From: Dokdonella sp.
GTDB lineage: Bacteria; Pseudomonadota; Gammaproteobacteria; Xanthomonadales; Rhodanobacteraceae
Length of the DNA stretch: 64,000 nucleotides
Direction of reading: 5' to 3'
Assembly (NCBI GenBank): GCA_016712865.1
Contig: JADJQH010000008.1
Location: 186,001-250,000 of the forward strand
Of this stretch, positions 8,034-61,618 are shown piece by piece. The notes below the pieces were generated by a model, which was not told where the DNA came from, ran no database searches, and saw nothing but the letters and a program-made list of their open reading frames with translations. Position 1 is the first letter of the stretch; every line of letters begins with the position of its first letter. The position numbers and the translations under genes were made by a program.

Positions 8034-9326
<1,293 letters not shown>

Positions 9327-9484
9327 GGCGGGTTTCCGGAGGGCGAAAAGCGCAAGTTTAGCAAGCGCCGCTGATGCTGTGGACCGGGCTTGAAACACGC
9401 GAGTATGCTCGTGCCCACGCTGGCCGCAGGCACGCACGATGCGTGATGCAATCTTCAGTTTCCACAGCTGCGACCGGGCGGAAA

Positions 9485-9525
9485 CCAAACCCTGTGATCC
9501 GATTCAAGAATCCATCAGGGTTTGG
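9485..9525. promoter_or_regulatory. Inverted repeat between divergent genes
   Basis: CCAAACCCTG at 9485-9494 is repeated inverted as CAGGGTTTGG at 9516-9525, with a 21-base gap. It lies in the roughly 240-base spacer between the divergent UDP-sugar dehydrogenase and secreted-protein genes, 38 bases before the GTG at 9563. There is no U-tract, so an operator or 5'-UTR hairpin is more likely than a terminator. Confidence 0.4.
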
Positions 9526-9562
9526 ATACCACCATTCGCGTCCCTGAAGGTGGAGTAGTGCC

Positions 9563-11317
9563 GTGTCACTTGTGCGTTTCCTGCTTGGCTTGAGCCTGAT
9601 CCTGGCCGGTTCGGTCCAGGCGGTTGAACCGTTCATGGCCCTGCCGGTCAGCAGCGGCAGCATGAGCGTGCAGTTGGTTCCCACCGAGGCGGTCACTGCC
9701 GGCAGCAACCAATTGGTCACCTTTGGCGTGCCATTTCCCCGCGGGTCGCTCACGGTTGCCGGGCTGGCCAATCTCAGGGTGCTCAAGGGTGCTGTCGAGA
9801 TTCCCGCCTATGTCGACCAGATGACGCCCTGGCGCCATCGCCTGGTGCCCGCCCTGGATGGAACCTCGGTGCGCGTGGTGCGCATCCAGATCCACAACAC
9901 GTTCGCCACGGTATCCCCGGAAAACATCACCGTCCAATGGGGCGGGCCCGCGCGTCTGCAGAATGTGAGCACGCTGACCCCGGTGCGCAACGGTTGGCAC
10001 ACCGTCAGCAGTGGCAGCTATGTGGCTGCCGACAATGTGCAGGAACCGAACGTGTATGCCGTCCTGCCACGGACCTGGCTCAGCCTGGGGGCACTCAAGG
10101 GCAACCAGAGCGTGGCTTTCGATGCCACCAACGCCGAGCCGCGTGACAACCCTTCAACCAACGATGGTATCGAGCACTGGCCTGGCTTTCAGGAAGCCGA
10201 TCGCGCCGCCAAGAACAATTTCTACACCCTGGTCAATCAGGATGACGCCGCAGTTACCGCGCCCAACCAGTGCCCGTACAAGACCGACTACGAGCCGTGG
10301 TTGTATGACCGCGCCTCATCACTGTTTGTCTTGTATTTCCGCAGCGGTTTCTACAAGGCCTTGCGCGAAGCGGTGCGTGCGTCGGAGTTTTACACGGACC
10401 ATGTCAATGCCAGCGGCTTTTTCGATCTCAAGCCTGGTGATACCAAATATGTCTATGCGGAAAACTTGGCATACCGCTACTGGCTGACCGGTGACGACAC
10501 CGCATTGAATCGGCTGGCAGCCATCGTCAGCGCACAGGCCGGTTTCACCGATGCCTGGACGCCAACGCTTGGTTTCTGGACCGAACGCCATGCAGCGTTC
10601 AAGTTGCTGGCCAATCAGGTCAACTACGAAATCAACGGCGGCAGCACGGCTGCGGGTCAGGTCACTACCTTGGTCGGGCGCATGGTCACGCACCAAAACG
10701 GCGCCAACGGACAGATTCCCCAGCCGACCGGTTTCGTCGATGGAGGCCTCTATCACCTGGGCTCCCAGCACGATGGCGATTGGGCAGACAGCGCCTATGG
10801 CGCATCGAGCTGGATGAGCGGCCTGATTGTCGACGCCATGCTGCGCGCCTATTCCACCTCGGAAGATCCGGCCATTGCCAACTTCATACGCCGCATGGGC
10901 AACTTCCTCCGCGTTGCCACCATCAACACCACCGACCACAGCTACGACTATGAAGGCGCCTTGGCCCTGCCCAGATATGGAATGCTGTCGAACGGAGCCG
11001 ATGGCCAGGTCAATTTCGAGGATGTCGAACACGCCTTGGACGTGGCCAACGGCACGGCCTGGGCCGCCTATTTCGCCGCCCTGACCGGGCAACCGGTTTC
11101 GGCGCTGGAGGCGGTCACCGAGGACCTTTACTTCACCTACGACATCGGCGTGAACTACTGGATCCGCCCGGGTGGTCCTGGCAGTGGACTACCCGCCTAT
11201 CGGGTCACACCCTGGCGCAAGTACGGCTGGGAACATCGCGTATCCGGCGGCCTCGGCTGGGCGGTGCTTGGCGCCACCGCGCAACCGGACGCGATCTTCA
11301 GTCACGGCTTCGAGTGA
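9563..11317 (+). CDS. Secreted protein with C-terminal GFE tag
   Basis: I do not recognise the family. The protein has 584 residues, a GTG start preceded by AAGGTGGAG and a clear signal peptide (residues 1-20, cleavage near VQA). Residues 30-200 look like beta-sandwich sequence (RVVRIQIHNTF), and residues 230-570 are helical with repeated aromatic and acidic motifs (NLAYRYWLTGDD, GSQHDGDWADSAYGASSW), which suggests an alpha/alpha-toroid of the kind found in glycoside hydrolases and lyases. The last residues are DAIFSHGFE, a tag shared with other secreted proteins in this window. It faces the exopolysaccharide locus, so a role in polymer processing is possible but unproven. Confidence 0.75.
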   Translation: MSLVRFLLGLSLILAGSVQAVEPFMALPVSSGSMSVQLVPTEAVTAGSNQLVTFGVPFPRGSLTVAGLANLRVLKGAVEIPAYVDQMTPWRHRLVPALDGTSVRVVRIQIHNTFATVSPENITVQWGGPARLQNVSTLTPVRNGWHTVSSGSYVAADNVQEPNVYAVLPRTWLSLGALKGNQSVAFDATNAEPRDNPSTNDGIEHWPGFQEADRAAKNNFYTLVNQDDAAVTAPNQCPYKTDYEPWLYDRASSLFVLYFRSGFYKALREAVRASEFYTDHVNASGFFDLKPGDTKYVYAENLAYRYWLTGDDTALNRLAAIVSAQAGFTDAWTPTLGFWTERHAAFKLLANQVNYEINGGSTAAGQVTTLVGRMVTHQNGANGQIPQPTGFVDGGLYHLGSQHDGDWADSAYGASSWMSGLIVDAMLRAYSTSEDPAIANFIRRMGNFLRVATINTTDHSYDYEGALALPRYGMLSNGADGQVNFEDVEHALDVANGTAWAAYFAALTGQPVSALEAVTEDLYFTYDIGVNYWIRPGGPGSGLPAYRVTPWRKYGWEHRVSGGLGWAVLGATAQPDAIFSHGFE

Positions 11318-56265: not shown

Positions 56266-58044
56266 ATGGCTGCAAACAAGAACAAGCATGGACGGTCGGC
56301 CTGGTTGCTGGCATGTGTGATGGGCGTGGGTGCGGCGAATGCTGCCGTGTACACGGTGGGGCCAACGGGCACGCCGGGAAACTGCACGCACTCCACGATC
56401 CAGGCCGCCATCAACGCCGCAGCCGGCAACCCGGGCACCGATGAAATTCGCATTTCGGCAAACCAGATCTGGCCAGCACAAGCCCTGTACGTCGAGAACC
56501 ATGGCGTGGATCTCATTGGCGGCTTTGCGGATTGTGCCTCCGAGATGCCGACTGCACAGACCGAATTGAGCGGAGCGGGCGGCGTGTCGGCACCCGTCGT
56601 TGTTGTTTCAAACACGGACAGCCACCAAGTTCGGCTCAATCGGCTGGCAATCGTTGATGGCGACCCGGCCTTCGCGATGGCGGGAAGCAGGGACGGTGGC
56701 GGTATCCGGTTTCTCGGTCCGGGTGGGCTGGAACTGGAACGGGTGCGCATTGCCGACAATCGCGCATCCAGCGGTGGCGGAGTTTTTGTCCAGAGTTATG
56801 CGGCGAAGGCGCCCATGACCCTGGCCATTGGCGATCACGTGCAGATCGAGGACAACCAGGCCGTCGAGGGGTTCGGTGGTGGAATCCGCGTGGTTGGTGC
56901 CAATCTGGCTCTGGCTGGCGTCGAGACAAGCATTCGCCGCAACAGTGCGGGAAACAATGGCGGGGGCATCTCGGCGTCTTCTGACTGGGAGGCGAGCATC
57001 GTCATTGCCTCCGCCGGCGCGGAAGCCGATGGCGTGATTGCCGACAATACCAGTCTGGTCGATGGCGGCGGCATCCATGTCTGGGGCAGTTACGTTGTTC
57101 GGCTGTACACCGATGATCCTGTTCGTCCATTGCGACTGGAACGCAACACGGCACGAACCGGAGGCGCCATCTTCGCGGAACGTGGGGCGAACGTCCTCCT
57201 GTGGGAGTCGATAGTCAGCGACAACCTCTCAAGCGGAAGTGGCGCTGCGCTGGGTCTTGATGGTGCGCGCATCGGGTCCTATCGGATTCCAGGCGCTGCG
57301 CATGCCCCCGCGGGCGCGGTTGCCTGCGCCCAGCCGATCCTTTGCAATCTGTGGGAGAACAACATCTCCCGTGCTGACAGCGGATTGCCACGAGAAGGAG
57401 CAATCGCCAAGTTTGTCGGCAATCCTTCCTTTTCGACCGAGCTGACGCTTGAATCTGCCTCAGTTCGCAACAACCAGGGCTTCAACCTTTTCTCCGATGT
57501 CTGCTCGGCTGGCGGCGGCCAGTGCGCTATGGACATCCTATTGAGCAACAGCGAGTTGGTTGGCAATTCGGTGCAATCGCTTGCCGATCTGGAATACGGC
57601 TCCGACCTTCAGCTTGACCTGTGCACGGTTGCCGAAATCGGGGCGATCAATGCCCCGATGTTCAATGTAGGCGCTGGCTTGCTGGGCTTGAATCGAAGCA
57701 TCATCTGGCAGCCGGGCCGCGCGATCATCGGCAACTCGCAGATACTCAATACCGGCCATCTGCTGGTGCATGACACCAGCCAGTTTCCGCCTGACCCCGG
57801 CATTCGCAGTGCGGATCCACGGTTCATCGACCCGGCCAATGGCAACTGGCAACTGATGCCGGATTCACCCGCCCTGGACAGCGCGCCCGTATTCGAAACG
57901 CCACTTCAGGATCTGGCACGCGCACCACGCGTTGTCGATCTGCCCCAGCTCACCAATCTGGCCGGCCCGGTGGATCTCGGTGCCTGGGAACGCCAGGAGA
58001 TCGATGTCATCTTCATCGACGGTTTTGATTCGCTGGCCAATTGA
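56266..58044 (+). CDS. Secreted right-handed beta-helix protein with GFD tag, second copy
   Basis: The 592-residue protein has a signal peptide at residues 8-28 and the same opening as the copy at 53783 (TVGPTGTPGNCTHSTIQAAINAAAGN, IDLIGGFADCAS). Gly- and Asn-rich repeats (GGGIRFLG, GGGVFVQS, GGGIRVVG, GGGISASS) form a beta-helix. It ends DVIFIDGFDSLAN: the tag is followed by five more residues, with Asp in place of Glu. Probably a paralogue from duplication. Confidence 0.85.
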   Translation: MAANKNKHGRSAWLLACVMGVGAANAAVYTVGPTGTPGNCTHSTIQAAINAAAGNPGTDEIRISANQIWPAQALYVENHGVDLIGGFADCASEMPTAQTELSGAGGVSAPVVVVSNTDSHQVRLNRLAIVDGDPAFAMAGSRDGGGIRFLGPGGLELERVRIADNRASSGGGVFVQSYAAKAPMTLAIGDHVQIEDNQAVEGFGGGIRVVGANLALAGVETSIRRNSAGNNGGGISASSDWEASIVIASAGAEADGVIADNTSLVDGGGIHVWGSYVVRLYTDDPVRPLRLERNTARTGGAIFAERGANVLLWESIVSDNLSSGSGAALGLDGARIGSYRIPGAAHAPAGAVACAQPILCNLWENNISRADSGLPREGAIAKFVGNPSFSTELTLESASVRNNQGFNLFSDVCSAGGGQCAMDILLSNSELVGNSVQSLADLEYGSDLQLDLCTVAEIGAINAPMFNVGAGLLGLNRSIIWQPGRAIIGNSQILNTGHLLVHDTSQFPPDPGIRSADPRFIDPANGNWQLMPDSPALDSAPVFETPLQDLARAPRVVDLPQLTNLAGPVDLGAWERQEIDVIFIDGFDSLAN

Positions 58045-58166
58045 ATGCGGGTGTGTTGCATGGCGAGTGCGGGTGCGCAGCGACACGCATGCAATCAGAA
58101 GCCGACAGTTGGCATTCACGCGCCGTGGATGGTCAATCTGCTCCCAGTCACCTGCGCAATCATGAG

Positions 58167-58216
58167 TGGTGGGCCCACCAGGACTCGAACCTGGAACCAA
58201 CGGATCATGAGTCCGC
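58167..58216 (-). pseudogene. tRNA-Ile-like 3' fragment (anticodon arm to CCA)
   Basis: Read on the minus strand, this 50-base fragment holds the anticodon stem-loop (CTCATGA loop, anticodon CAU), variable loop, T-arm, acceptor 3' strand and an encoded CCA. The D-arm and the 5' acceptor strand are missing. The 3' 35 bases match the full tRNA-Ile gene at 59206 except at two positions, but no intron is present here. It resembles an attachment-site remnant. Confidence 0.8.
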
Positions 58217-58409
58217 TTGGAAATTGGCAAATTACCGAAAACCAAGCGAAGGCTACCGAAGGAAACGGAAGATGAAAGTAGTTCCGCATTGGACGGTTGG
58301 CGAAGTTTGGCAGAGTGGGGAAGAGCCGAGCGGTGCACCTCTGTTGCGCCTACCACCGTGTGTGGCGGGTGGGCGCGGTCCACGCTTGCCGACCCGGCTG
58401 AATCGGCGT
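58217..58409. other. Gene-free stretch before the MazEF-type pair
   Basis: The sequence next to the tRNA fragment contains no supported gene; the open frame through it translates tRNA-derived sequence. It probably came with the inserted segment. Confidence 0.5.
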
Positions 58410-58431
58410 ATGTTTTATCCCAGTAAAACAT
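58410..58431 (+). promoter_or_regulatory. Operator palindrome of the MazEF-type operon
   Basis: ATGTTTTA at 58410-58417 faces TAAAACAT at 58424-58431, 15 bases upstream of the antitoxin ATG. An AbrB-fold antitoxin would repress its own operon here. Confidence 0.65.
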
Positions 58432-58446
58432 CAGGTCTAGCCAAAC

Positions 58447-58698
58447 ATGAGCCGTGTAGCCACCCTCCGCCGCTCAGGCGGTTCCGTCATACTCTCGATA
58501 CCCAAGGCCATTGTCGATTCGCTGGCCGTGGACGCAGGCTCAGTCGTCGAGCTGTCCCTCAACGGCCGCAGCCTCTCGGTGACGCCCGCGCGGCGCAGCT
58601 TGGCGGATCGTCTCGCAGCAAGTCCGAAGTCGCCAAAATTGTGGCAGCGGGATGACGAATGGCTTGAGGATGCGCCACAAGGGCGTGAAGCCCTGTGA
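58447..58698 (+). CDS. mazE: MazE-like antitoxin (AbrB fold)
   Basis: The 83-residue protein has an AbrB/SpoVT-type N-terminal domain (VATLRRSGGSVILSIPKAIVD, AGSVVELSLNGRSLSV) for DNA binding and an unstructured acidic C-terminus with Trp residues (LWQRDDEWLEDAP) that would bind the toxin. It overlaps the next gene by four bases. Confidence 0.87.
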   Translation: MSRVATLRRSGGSVILSIPKAIVDSLAVDAGSVVELSLNGRSLSVTPARRSLADRLAASPKSPKLWQRDDEWLEDAPQGREAL

Positions 58699-59042
58699 GT
58701 CGAGGCGCCCCACAACGCGGCGACATTCTCGAACTGAGCCTGGACCCGACGCACGGCCGCGAGATTCGAGGCTCACGACCAGTGTTGGTGCTGTCAGCCG
58801 ATGCCTTCAACAAAGCATCCGGGTTGCTCCTGGTCGCGCCGATCACGCAAGGCGGCACCGCTTCGCGCGAGACCGGTTTCAGTGTGACGCTGATGGGATC
58901 AGCTACGCGCACCCAAGGCGTCATTCTCTGCGACCAGACCCGCACCGTTGATGCCAGGGCTCGAGCGTTCAGGCGACTGGAGAAAGCACCCGACCATGTG
59001 GTACAGGAAGCGCTGGACGCGGTTCGATCCATTCTCGAATAG
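58695..59042 (+). CDS. mazF: MazF/PemK-type mRNA interferase toxin
   Basis: The 115-residue toxin cleaves mRNA in its family. RGDILELSLDPTHGREIRGSRPVLVLS is the conserved N-terminal signature and VTLMGSATRTQGVILCDQTRTVD carries the core strands. It starts with GTG and overlaps the antitoxin stop as GTGA. The pair lies between two copies of the tRNA-Ile 3' end. Confidence 0.9.
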   Translation: MSRGAPQRGDILELSLDPTHGREIRGSRPVLVLSADAFNKASGLLLVAPITQGGTASRETGFSVTLMGSATRTQGVILCDQTRTVDARARAFRRLEKAPDHVVQEALDAVRSILE

Positions 59043-59205
59043 CTGAGTTGATTCGGATCGTAAGGCTGAGACGCACAGTCTGACAATTCACGTATCGAAC
59101 GCTGGTCGTACCGCTGAGATGGGAAAGCTCACGAGCGTCATTTTTCGCGCTCGTGAAAGTCAACATGGCTGCGGCTGTGCCAAAACTGCAAATGTGCTAC
59201 GAATA

Positions 59206-59525
59206 TGGGCCCACCAGGACTTGAACCTGGAACCAAGGGATTCGCGTGATCCGAAGGTTTCCCCTCGGCGCGGACTATCTCTTCACCCTTCGCTCGAAGC
59301 GAGTGGGGTGCGGGACGCTCGAGCCTGTGATCAAGGGCACTTGAGCCCTCAGGTAGTCTCTGCACCGTCCGGCGGTGTACCGCCGGCTTGGCTCAGGGTT
59401 GCCACCGTCCGCGCATTGCGCGCCGCTGAGGTTTCCCTGAATTCATCCCGATCCCGTCCGCGCATTCCGGCGCGGCGGCACCTTTTCGATGAGTCCCCTG
59501 CTCTAACCAATTGAGCTATAGGCCC
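59206..59525 (-). tRNA. tRNA-Ile(CAU) interrupted by a group I intron
   Basis: The 5' exon (59489-59525) reads GGGCCTATAGCTC to the anticodon CAU and the 3' exon (59206-59242) begins AATCCCTTGG. The spliced RNA folds as a normal cloverleaf of 74 bases: acceptor stem GGGCCTA/TGGGCCC, D-arm GCTC/GAGC, anticodon stem GGGGA/TCCCT, T-arm CCAGG/CCTGG, discriminator A. CCA is not encoded. In tRNAs with the CAU anticodon and a non-initiator, non-elongator Met fold, lysidine modification at C34 makes them read AUA. Its place just downstream of rpoD is odd for a tRNA. Confidence 0.9.
59243..59488 (-). ncRNA. Group I intron in the tRNA-Ile anticodon loop
   Basis: The 246-base intron lies between positions 36 and 37 of the anticodon loop. 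It starts after U36 with CGAAAAGGUGCC; GUG serves as internal guide pairing with the CAU of the 5' exon with a U-G wobble at the splice site. It ends in G. Core elements are seen: AAUUCAGGGAAACCUCAGCG with CCCUGAGCCAAGC (P4 and the J strands), GCAGAGACUA (59354-59363) and AUAGUCCG (59271-59278) as P7. No homing endonuclease is encoded. The arrangement is that of the Azoarcus tRNA-Ile intron. Confidence 0.9.
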
Positions 59526-59626: not shown

Positions 59627-61498
<1,872 letters not shown>

Positions 61499-61618
61499 GA
61501 AAATTCTGCTGTGCCTTGAATAAAGAACTCGAAAGTATAGGAGGCCCGTCAAGGGCGTCCCAAGTGATTGATGCGACGGGATTTCCGAAGGTTCCGCAGG
61601 TATCCAACGGAAAACCGT

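Follow-up and report, generated by a model that had tools for sequence, protein, structure and literature searches.

The locus described here raises the question of how AUA codons are read in a genome whose only recognised tRNA-Ile2(CAU) gene is interrupted in the anticodon loop, and of where the interrupting element belongs among known introns. The gene lies in a 64,000-base stretch of DNA (the window) from a genome of the genus Dokdonella, Lysobacterales, which fits the Lysobacterales-like host named in the initial annotation. That annotation placed a group I intron in a tRNA-Ile(CAU) gene next to rpoD, and both the coordinates, which proved exact, and the neighbour, an upstream ORF with Sigma70 domains about 100 bases away, were recovered (Table 1). 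The Rfam model RF00028 matched the minus strand from 59514 to 59251 over its full length with 57.2 bits against a curated cut-off of 50 (E = 7.2e-12), so that the proposed covariance check came out positive; this was the sole Rfam match at gathering in the window and the sole match to that model in the whole assembly.

When ARAGORN was run without introns, no tRNA was called anywhere in the window. With introns allowed, it called 59206-59525 (minus), with the splice point off by a base or two and the tRNA wrongly named. A tRNA had been claimed to appear only after removal of 246 bases and indeed, once the exons GGGGACUCAU and AAUCCCUU are joined, the anticodon stem has five of five pairs and all 74 positions align with intact tRNA genes of congeners (best, 97.3%). 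The intron sits directly 3′ of the anticodon, between tRNA positions 36 and 37, and carries a P3-P9 core with P7, a U.G pair at the 5′ splice site and a terminal G; the annotated P4 and P7 strands were located together with their partners. We assigned the host to tRNA-Ile2 from its CAU anticodon, its Ile2-type body (by comparison with known Ile2 and Met sequences and with both Met genes that the genome holds) and the TilS encoded in the genome (168.7 bits). An antisense ORF at 59119-59514 (+), with the phrase WAHQDLNLEPRD, at least partly reads the tRNA sequence backwards.

Table 1 Features of the split tRNA-Ile2 locus and of related genes in two congeners (window positions unless a locus is named).
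Feature	Position	Strand	Remark
tRNA-Ile2(CAU) gene with intron	59206..59525	-	320 bases, no encoded CCA
5′ exon	59489..59525	-	anticodon CAU (59491-59489) at its end; joined exons compared with congener genes
Group I intron	59243..59488	-	246 bases, without long peripheral insertion; RF00028, 57.2 bits
3′ exon	59206..59242	-	joined exons compared with congener genes
Internal guide GUG	59479..59481	-	within GGUG 59482-59479; faces CAU, U.G at 5′ splice site
P2 hairpin	59454..59478	-	8/9 pairs with double-sided change
P3 5′ strand	59444..59450	-	partner 59311-59317; 100% of cells paired, nearly invariant
P4 5′ strand	59435..59440	-	partner 59393-59398; alignment helix
P6a hairpin	59369..59386	-	7/7 pairs with double-sided change
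P7 5′ strand	59354..59358	-	partner 59273-59277; guanosine-site helix; invariant in 87 distinct rows
P7.1/P7.2 element	59324..59353	-	between P7 and P3; 100% paired, G-C/A-U exchanges at two pairs
P8	59284..59310	-	alignment helices
P9.0 and P9	59244..59271	-	alignment helices
Terminal G of intron	59243	-	last base is G in 89/89 introns
rpoD (sigma-70)	59627..61552	-	upstream neighbour, same strand; ORF, Pfam Sigma70 domains
Relic of intron-free tRNA-Ile2	58167..58217	-	3′ two thirds and CCA; 5′ third missing
tRNA-Ile2 split at 33/34, G002	L295:3490-3808	+	
tRNA-Ile2 split at 33/34, G004	L297:8056-8377	-	

Our main reading, to which we give a probability of roughly 0.9, is that the tRNA-Ile2(CAU) gene is split at 36/37 by a compact group I ribozyme of a P7.1/P7.2 family, free of an endonuclease gene, which resides at an rpoD-tRNA-Ile2 locus in Gammaproteobacteria (GTDB sense) and has often been lost and sometimes transferred; AUA decoding should depend on its splicing.

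The distribution of the intron was surveyed with RF00028, and all matched places were fetched and typed by host tRNA. Matches were found in 3 of 10 genomes of the genus, 54 of 233 of the family, 50 of 398 of the order (30 of them family members) and 56 of 369 of the class (own genome included). The intron at position 36/37 of tRNA-Ile2 was present in 50 of the 54 family genomes and in 16 of the 20 RF00028-positive genomes of the order outside the family, and 23 more came from the class outside the order, which gives 89 distinct introns of 232-280 bases. It is thus not a rarity and is common in the family and order. Other hosts in the class outside the order were Ile2 split at 33/34 (2), Leu, Thr(UGU), Lys(CUU), Arg(CCU) and a few others, and at some loci there ARAGORN recognised no split tRNA. 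Within the family, tRNA-Leu introns occupied six loci in six genomes (L003, L047, L053, L054, L055 and L056), with anticodon UAA in five and CAA in L055; four of these genomes had the Leu intron only, and two (G039, G175) had both a Leu and an Ile2 intron. A gammaproteobacterial tRNA-Leu intron has reportedly been described before.

An exact-pattern scan of genome contigs returned 29 stretches, including one of Dokdonella immobilis (NZ_FOVF01000002.1) and, by title, 11 of Rhodanobacter (e.g., NZ_MUNR01000010.1, NZ_AJXU01000036.1), 4 of Luteimonas, 3 of Lysobacter and 2 of Arenimonas; this list is no census because the pattern was tuned to the Dokdonella lineage. Carriage of the intron on plasmids was considered and rejected: two intron queries had no match in plasmids, and earlier plasmid matches were exon parts.

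The 89 introns are uniform where splicing would take place. In every one the junction reads ACUCAU/AAUC, the anticodon stem has five of five pairs, the first base is C and the last is G, and GGUG occurs near the intron start with invariant guide columns; the guide opposite CAU and the terminal G, claimed for the window, are therefore features of the whole set. The alignment of these introns (A1) contained 87 distinct rows, on which pair statistics were calculated. RNAalifold folded A1 with 60 pairs, 29 of them with double-sided changes, and by itself recovered the helices that we propose save the pseudoknotted P7 and most of P5. In our structure of 68 pairs, P7 included, 96.9% of the cells were paired, and 32 pairs changed on both sides as opposed to 23.1 in shuffled alignments (0/500 as high). 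None of the 500 shuffles attained any of five structure measures, and versions of the structure slid along the alignment were only 34-43% paired. P3, P4, P7 and P7.1 hardly vary and so offer no covariation evidence of their own. The poorest fits were the 5′-most P2 pair, unpaired in 25 of 87 rows, and one P5 pair, unpaired in 62 of 87.

We then turned to the claim that no other tRNA of this type is seen. RF00005 had 44 matches, and ARAGORN placed 43 genes on them, among which the only CAU genes were those of the elongator and initiator Met tRNAs. This inventory of the 99.4%-complete genome contained no second tRNA-Ile2 gene, and in place of an intact intron-free copy there was only a 5′-truncated relic; within this inventory the claim held. 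tRNA-Ser(UGA) was absent from the same inventory (its gene may have been missed, unassembled or itself interrupted), as was an intact tRNA-Gln, which occurs only in a damaged array; because of these two absences the inventory is perhaps incomplete and an unseen Ile2 gene possible. Without a second Ile2 gene in this inventory, the cell should need splicing of the window intron to read AUA. Among the 50 family genomes with the intron, 24 were without an intact CAU match at up to two mismatches among the matches listed, a further 22 were without any Ile2 match, and four (G132, G208, G209, G212) have one Ile2 match each, outside the matches listed.

The damaged Gln array lies outside the window (G000:C2:629600-630160; L218-L221) and contains three copies, found by one pattern with up to three mismatches, none of which ARAGORN calls as a tRNA. 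In two of them the T loop holds a repeat of about 75 bases, and in the third the 5′ acceptor strand is altered; an RtT match overlapping the repeat scored 34.5 bits, below the cut-off of 45. One normal-looking tRNA-Gln copy was present in each of the nine other genomes of the genus. The array may be a real lesion, a removable insert or an assembly fault.

The relic was noticed through an ORF at 58041-58655 (+), with the phrase WAHQDSNLEPTD, which is at least partly antisense tRNA. About 1 kb from the split gene, it has lost the 5′ acceptor strand and the D arm and scores 21.8 bits with RF00005, below the cut-off of 29. A PemK/MazF-like toxin gene (58695-59042, +; PF02452, 91.7 bits) lies between it and the split tRNA. 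A 3′ tRNA fragment with CCA near such a gene is what integration at a tRNA typically produces, and the fragment could accordingly be the duplicated attachment site of a small mobile island, with PemK between two tRNA 3′ ends, instead of a decayed tRNA-Ile2. We take this possibility seriously but lean against it, because the fragment is closer to the intact, intron-free Ile2 gene of congener G005 (48 bases, one mismatch) than to the exons of the window itself (45 bases, three mismatches), which points to the remnant of an intron-free allele. Tandem intron-free tRNA-Ile2 copies, some with altered 3′ ends, were seen near rpoD in G007 (L301) and G010 (L261, L286) and on another contig in G014 (L262); such tandems are a possible source of pairs with and without the intron.

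The initial annotation also suggested lateral movement of the intron with its tRNA. In 67 of the 89 loci (37/50 in the family, 9/16 in the order, 21/23 in the class) a same-strand RpoD-coding gene (70% identity or more) lies no more than 1505 bases upstream, and none was found in the fetched flank of the other 22. Because this neighbourhood recurs across the class, the locus looks inherited. For the intron itself, vertical inheritance from a common ancestor, with the patchiness due to loss alone, would explain a good deal. For 50 of 62 rows the nearest intron belonged to a genome of the same genus, and for 61 of 77 to one of the same family. Intron and rpoD distances were correlated (Mantel r = 0.75 for 52 loci and 0.51 for 31 Lysobacterales, 0/5000 permutations as high; r = 0.41 for 21 loci outside Lysobacterales, 11/5000 as high), the intron tree required 24 genus-label changes compared with 47.3 after shuffling, and a single clade of the 15 Rhodanobacter introns was not rejected (p-AU 0.23). 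We nevertheless consider descent by loss alone unlikely. The rpoD tree joined Dokdonella with another genus (g4) at 99/91, whereas the two Dokdonella introns were sisters (97/81, bootstrap not settled) inside a mainly Rhodanobacter group, and forcing the five introns of Dokdonella and g4 into one clade, a test chosen after the trees were seen, was disfavoured (p-AU 0.010). rpoD is a weak species tree, since its 900-base stretch gives the genus Dokdonella alone only 58/12. Counts of changes in intron presence, 13 on 74 rows and 11 on 53 rows, depend on genome choice because the 25 genomes without the 36/37 intron (22 with RpoD) were hand-picked for the rpoD tree. Given the conflict between the intron and rpoD trees, some lateral movement of the intron is likely although the locus is inherited, so the annotated movement stands for the intron part; we read the history as long residence, many losses and some transfer.

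Two members of the genus, G002 and G004, lacked both an intact Ile2 match and an RF00028 match. Inspection of some 20 kb to either side of rpoD showed that their Ile2 gene, about 2.4 and 11 kb downstream of rpoD, respectively, carries an insert of 242 and 245 bases between U33 and C34 (Table 1). The two inserts are 92.9% identical, and they resemble one that interrupts the gene at this same point in G536 and is matched by RF00028 (73.6% over 91 bases, E = 7.6e-9). Because Rfam misses the G002 insert (no RF00028 match at E of 1 or 10), we built a covariance model, R1, from 11 introns without P7.1/P7.2, with G002 and G004, duplicates and long introns excluded. It gave the two inserts 120.3 and 114.2 bits, and these scores place the 33/34 insert with the Leu/Arg-type group I introns. 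The ten genomes of the genus therefore comprise two with the 36/37 intron (the window and G001), two with the 33/34 intron, five with an intact Ile2 gene (G003, G005, G006, G007, G009) and one (G008, 85% complete) to which no state was assigned.

The two kinds differ in an element of at least 30 bases between the P7 5′ strand and the P3 3′ strand, which in all 89 of the 36/37 introns folds as P7.1/P7.2, with G-C to A-U exchanges at two pairs (6 and 28 of 87 rows); 17 of the 89 fail a strict P7.1 regular expression and were accepted from sequence and pair counts. The element was absent from the 13 Leu, 2 Arg and 4 Ile2-33/34 introns inspected. P7.1/P7.2 is a mark of subgroup IA, and bacterial tRNA-Leu and tRNA-Arg introns are IC3. 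None of the 89 shows the IC3 arrangement, which has the P3 3′ strand close after the P7 5′ strand and no P7.1/P7.2, whereas the IA element is present and is spanned by the phage matches described below. P7.1/P7.2 is listed among the traits that separate group I intron classes (PMC3984707). The 36/37 introns may thus be IA-like, an assignment based on one peripheral element and phage similarity. Introns that follow the anticodon in Thr (L084, L086, L089, L092) and Lys(CUU) (L095) genes have, by eye, a P7.1/P7.2-like element and are perhaps the same family retargeted.

The Azoarcus tRNA-Ile intron lies after CAU and has the guide GUG; to our knowledge it is without P7.1/P7.2. Had an Azoarcus-type (IC3) intron and its tRNA come recently from a betaproteobacterium, this would account for the common tRNA, site and CAU/GUG pairing, and the window does match R1 (40.2 bits, E = 4e-11). 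We regard such an arrival as very improbable, because P7.1/P7.2 is present in 89/89, synteny with rpoD extends across the class and the sister introns of Dokdonella fall within a group with Rhodanobacter introns. The R1 match is the shared core: other P7.1-type introns score 39-47 bits, whereas R1-type introns outside the training set score 114-152 bits (138.9-152.2 for five of R1's own kind). The Azoarcus comparison made in the initial annotation thus keeps its host tRNA and site, and its kinship is disfavoured; the parallel, we think, is probably not one of lineage.

From its sequence and structure, the window intron looks like a self-splicing one. After transcription, the precursor tRNA would fold with its guide GUG paired to the anticodon CAU, which would put the U.G pair in place at the 5′ splice site. 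A guanosine held in P7 would attack this site, the freed U36 would attack after the terminal G, and the exons would be ligated to CUCAUAA, upon which TilS would convert C34 to lysidine and the tRNA would read AUA. That the intron is instead a dead insertion, the gene a pseudogene and AUA read otherwise is hardly credible: the intron-free relic 1 kb away indicates a locus in flux, but no other Ile2 gene was found, TilS is kept, the ribozyme structure covaries and the exon stems are complete in 89/89.

Relatives of the ribozyme core were detected in phages, whose introns the family appears to resemble more closely than it does that of Azoarcus. The blastn search with the intron matched 13 phage records, none covering 80% of it; seven were cyanophage records (psbA named in most) that matched over P6-P7-P7.1/7.2-P3, and others were Vibrio phage 11895-B1 and the uncultured phages cr55_1 and cr1_1. 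A scan of viral contigs with a 17-base motif gave 12 matches, of which eight are inserts with this core, three are ends of bacterial-type Ile2 genes and one looks like chance in coding DNA. In one viral contig, IMGVR_UViG_3300030098_003770 (L310), five RF00028 matches fall within 2 kb (9185-11250), and three ORFs between the introns match positions 48-114, 110-166 and 167-266 of PF17236, a major capsid protein. Over 221 bases, the first of its introns shares 80.5% identity with an Ile2 intron (L113). Like the Ile2 introns it has P7.1/P7.2, a site after CAU and a GGUG guide, but its host is the major capsid gene; in the tree it forms a long branch of unsure placement. Introns in S-PM2 psbA, Vibrio phage 11895-B1 and L310 thus have part of the core in common with the window intron and differ in residing in protein genes. 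In another viral contig, IMGVR_UViG_3300036715_001140 (L314, 9523-9861, minus), a tRNA-Leu(UAA) appears by eye to be split near 31/32 by an insert with the same P7.1 motif.

One tentative interpretation, against which we would still wager, is that the rpoD-linked Ile2 introns are of phage type. They would have passed between phage protein genes and tRNA-Ile2, since the same three-base guide finds CAU in both, and later have become fixed residents that make AUA decoding ribozyme-dependent, with the Dokdonella anticodon loop hit by two kinds of intron, at 36/37 and 33/34.

Many Gammaproteobacteria (GTDB sense) seem to rely on ribozyme splicing for a housekeeping tRNA, the one that reads AUA, and the split Ile2 genes escape tRNA finders unless introns are allowed. 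The intron family is patchy and related to phage introns, and sister species carry another intron type at a neighbouring position; together they form a natural system in which the persistence, movement and loss of endonuclease-free introns in an essential gene can be addressed.

One of the closest known systems is the tRNA-Ile intron of Azoarcus sp. BH72, which resembles that of the window in its tRNA and its three-base guide (PMC6274277, PMC3984707), for which crystal structures exist, and which is named IC3 in a title cited by PMC3984707; the window intron differs in its P7.1/P7.2, which the Azoarcus intron is not known to have. The tRNAscan-SE 2.0 paper reports 36 genomes in which group I introns caused the fMet or Ile2 gene to be overlooked, with Acidovorax and Burkholderia named as Ile2 cases (PMC8450103), so that the extension of the host range seen in the initial annotation is only partly new. 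Those introns interrupt the same tRNA, were likewise missed by tRNA finders and are perhaps of the same family as the window intron. Bacterial tRNA-Leu and tRNA-Arg(CCU) introns are also group I introns in the anticodon loop, and the Leu type occurs in the same family of bacteria, but those inspected have no P7.1/P7.2 and the Leu insertion point differs from that of the window. Reviews list bacterial tRNA group I introns in cyanobacteria and in alpha- and betaproteobacteria (PMC4033280, PMC11408192), and we found no mention of Lysobacterales tRNA introns in the open-licence literature, a negative result of little weight. Bacterial tRNA-Ile2 genes with group I introns are thus already known, and what the Dokdonella locus adds to them is a corrected lineage and an unexpected second intron type in sister species.
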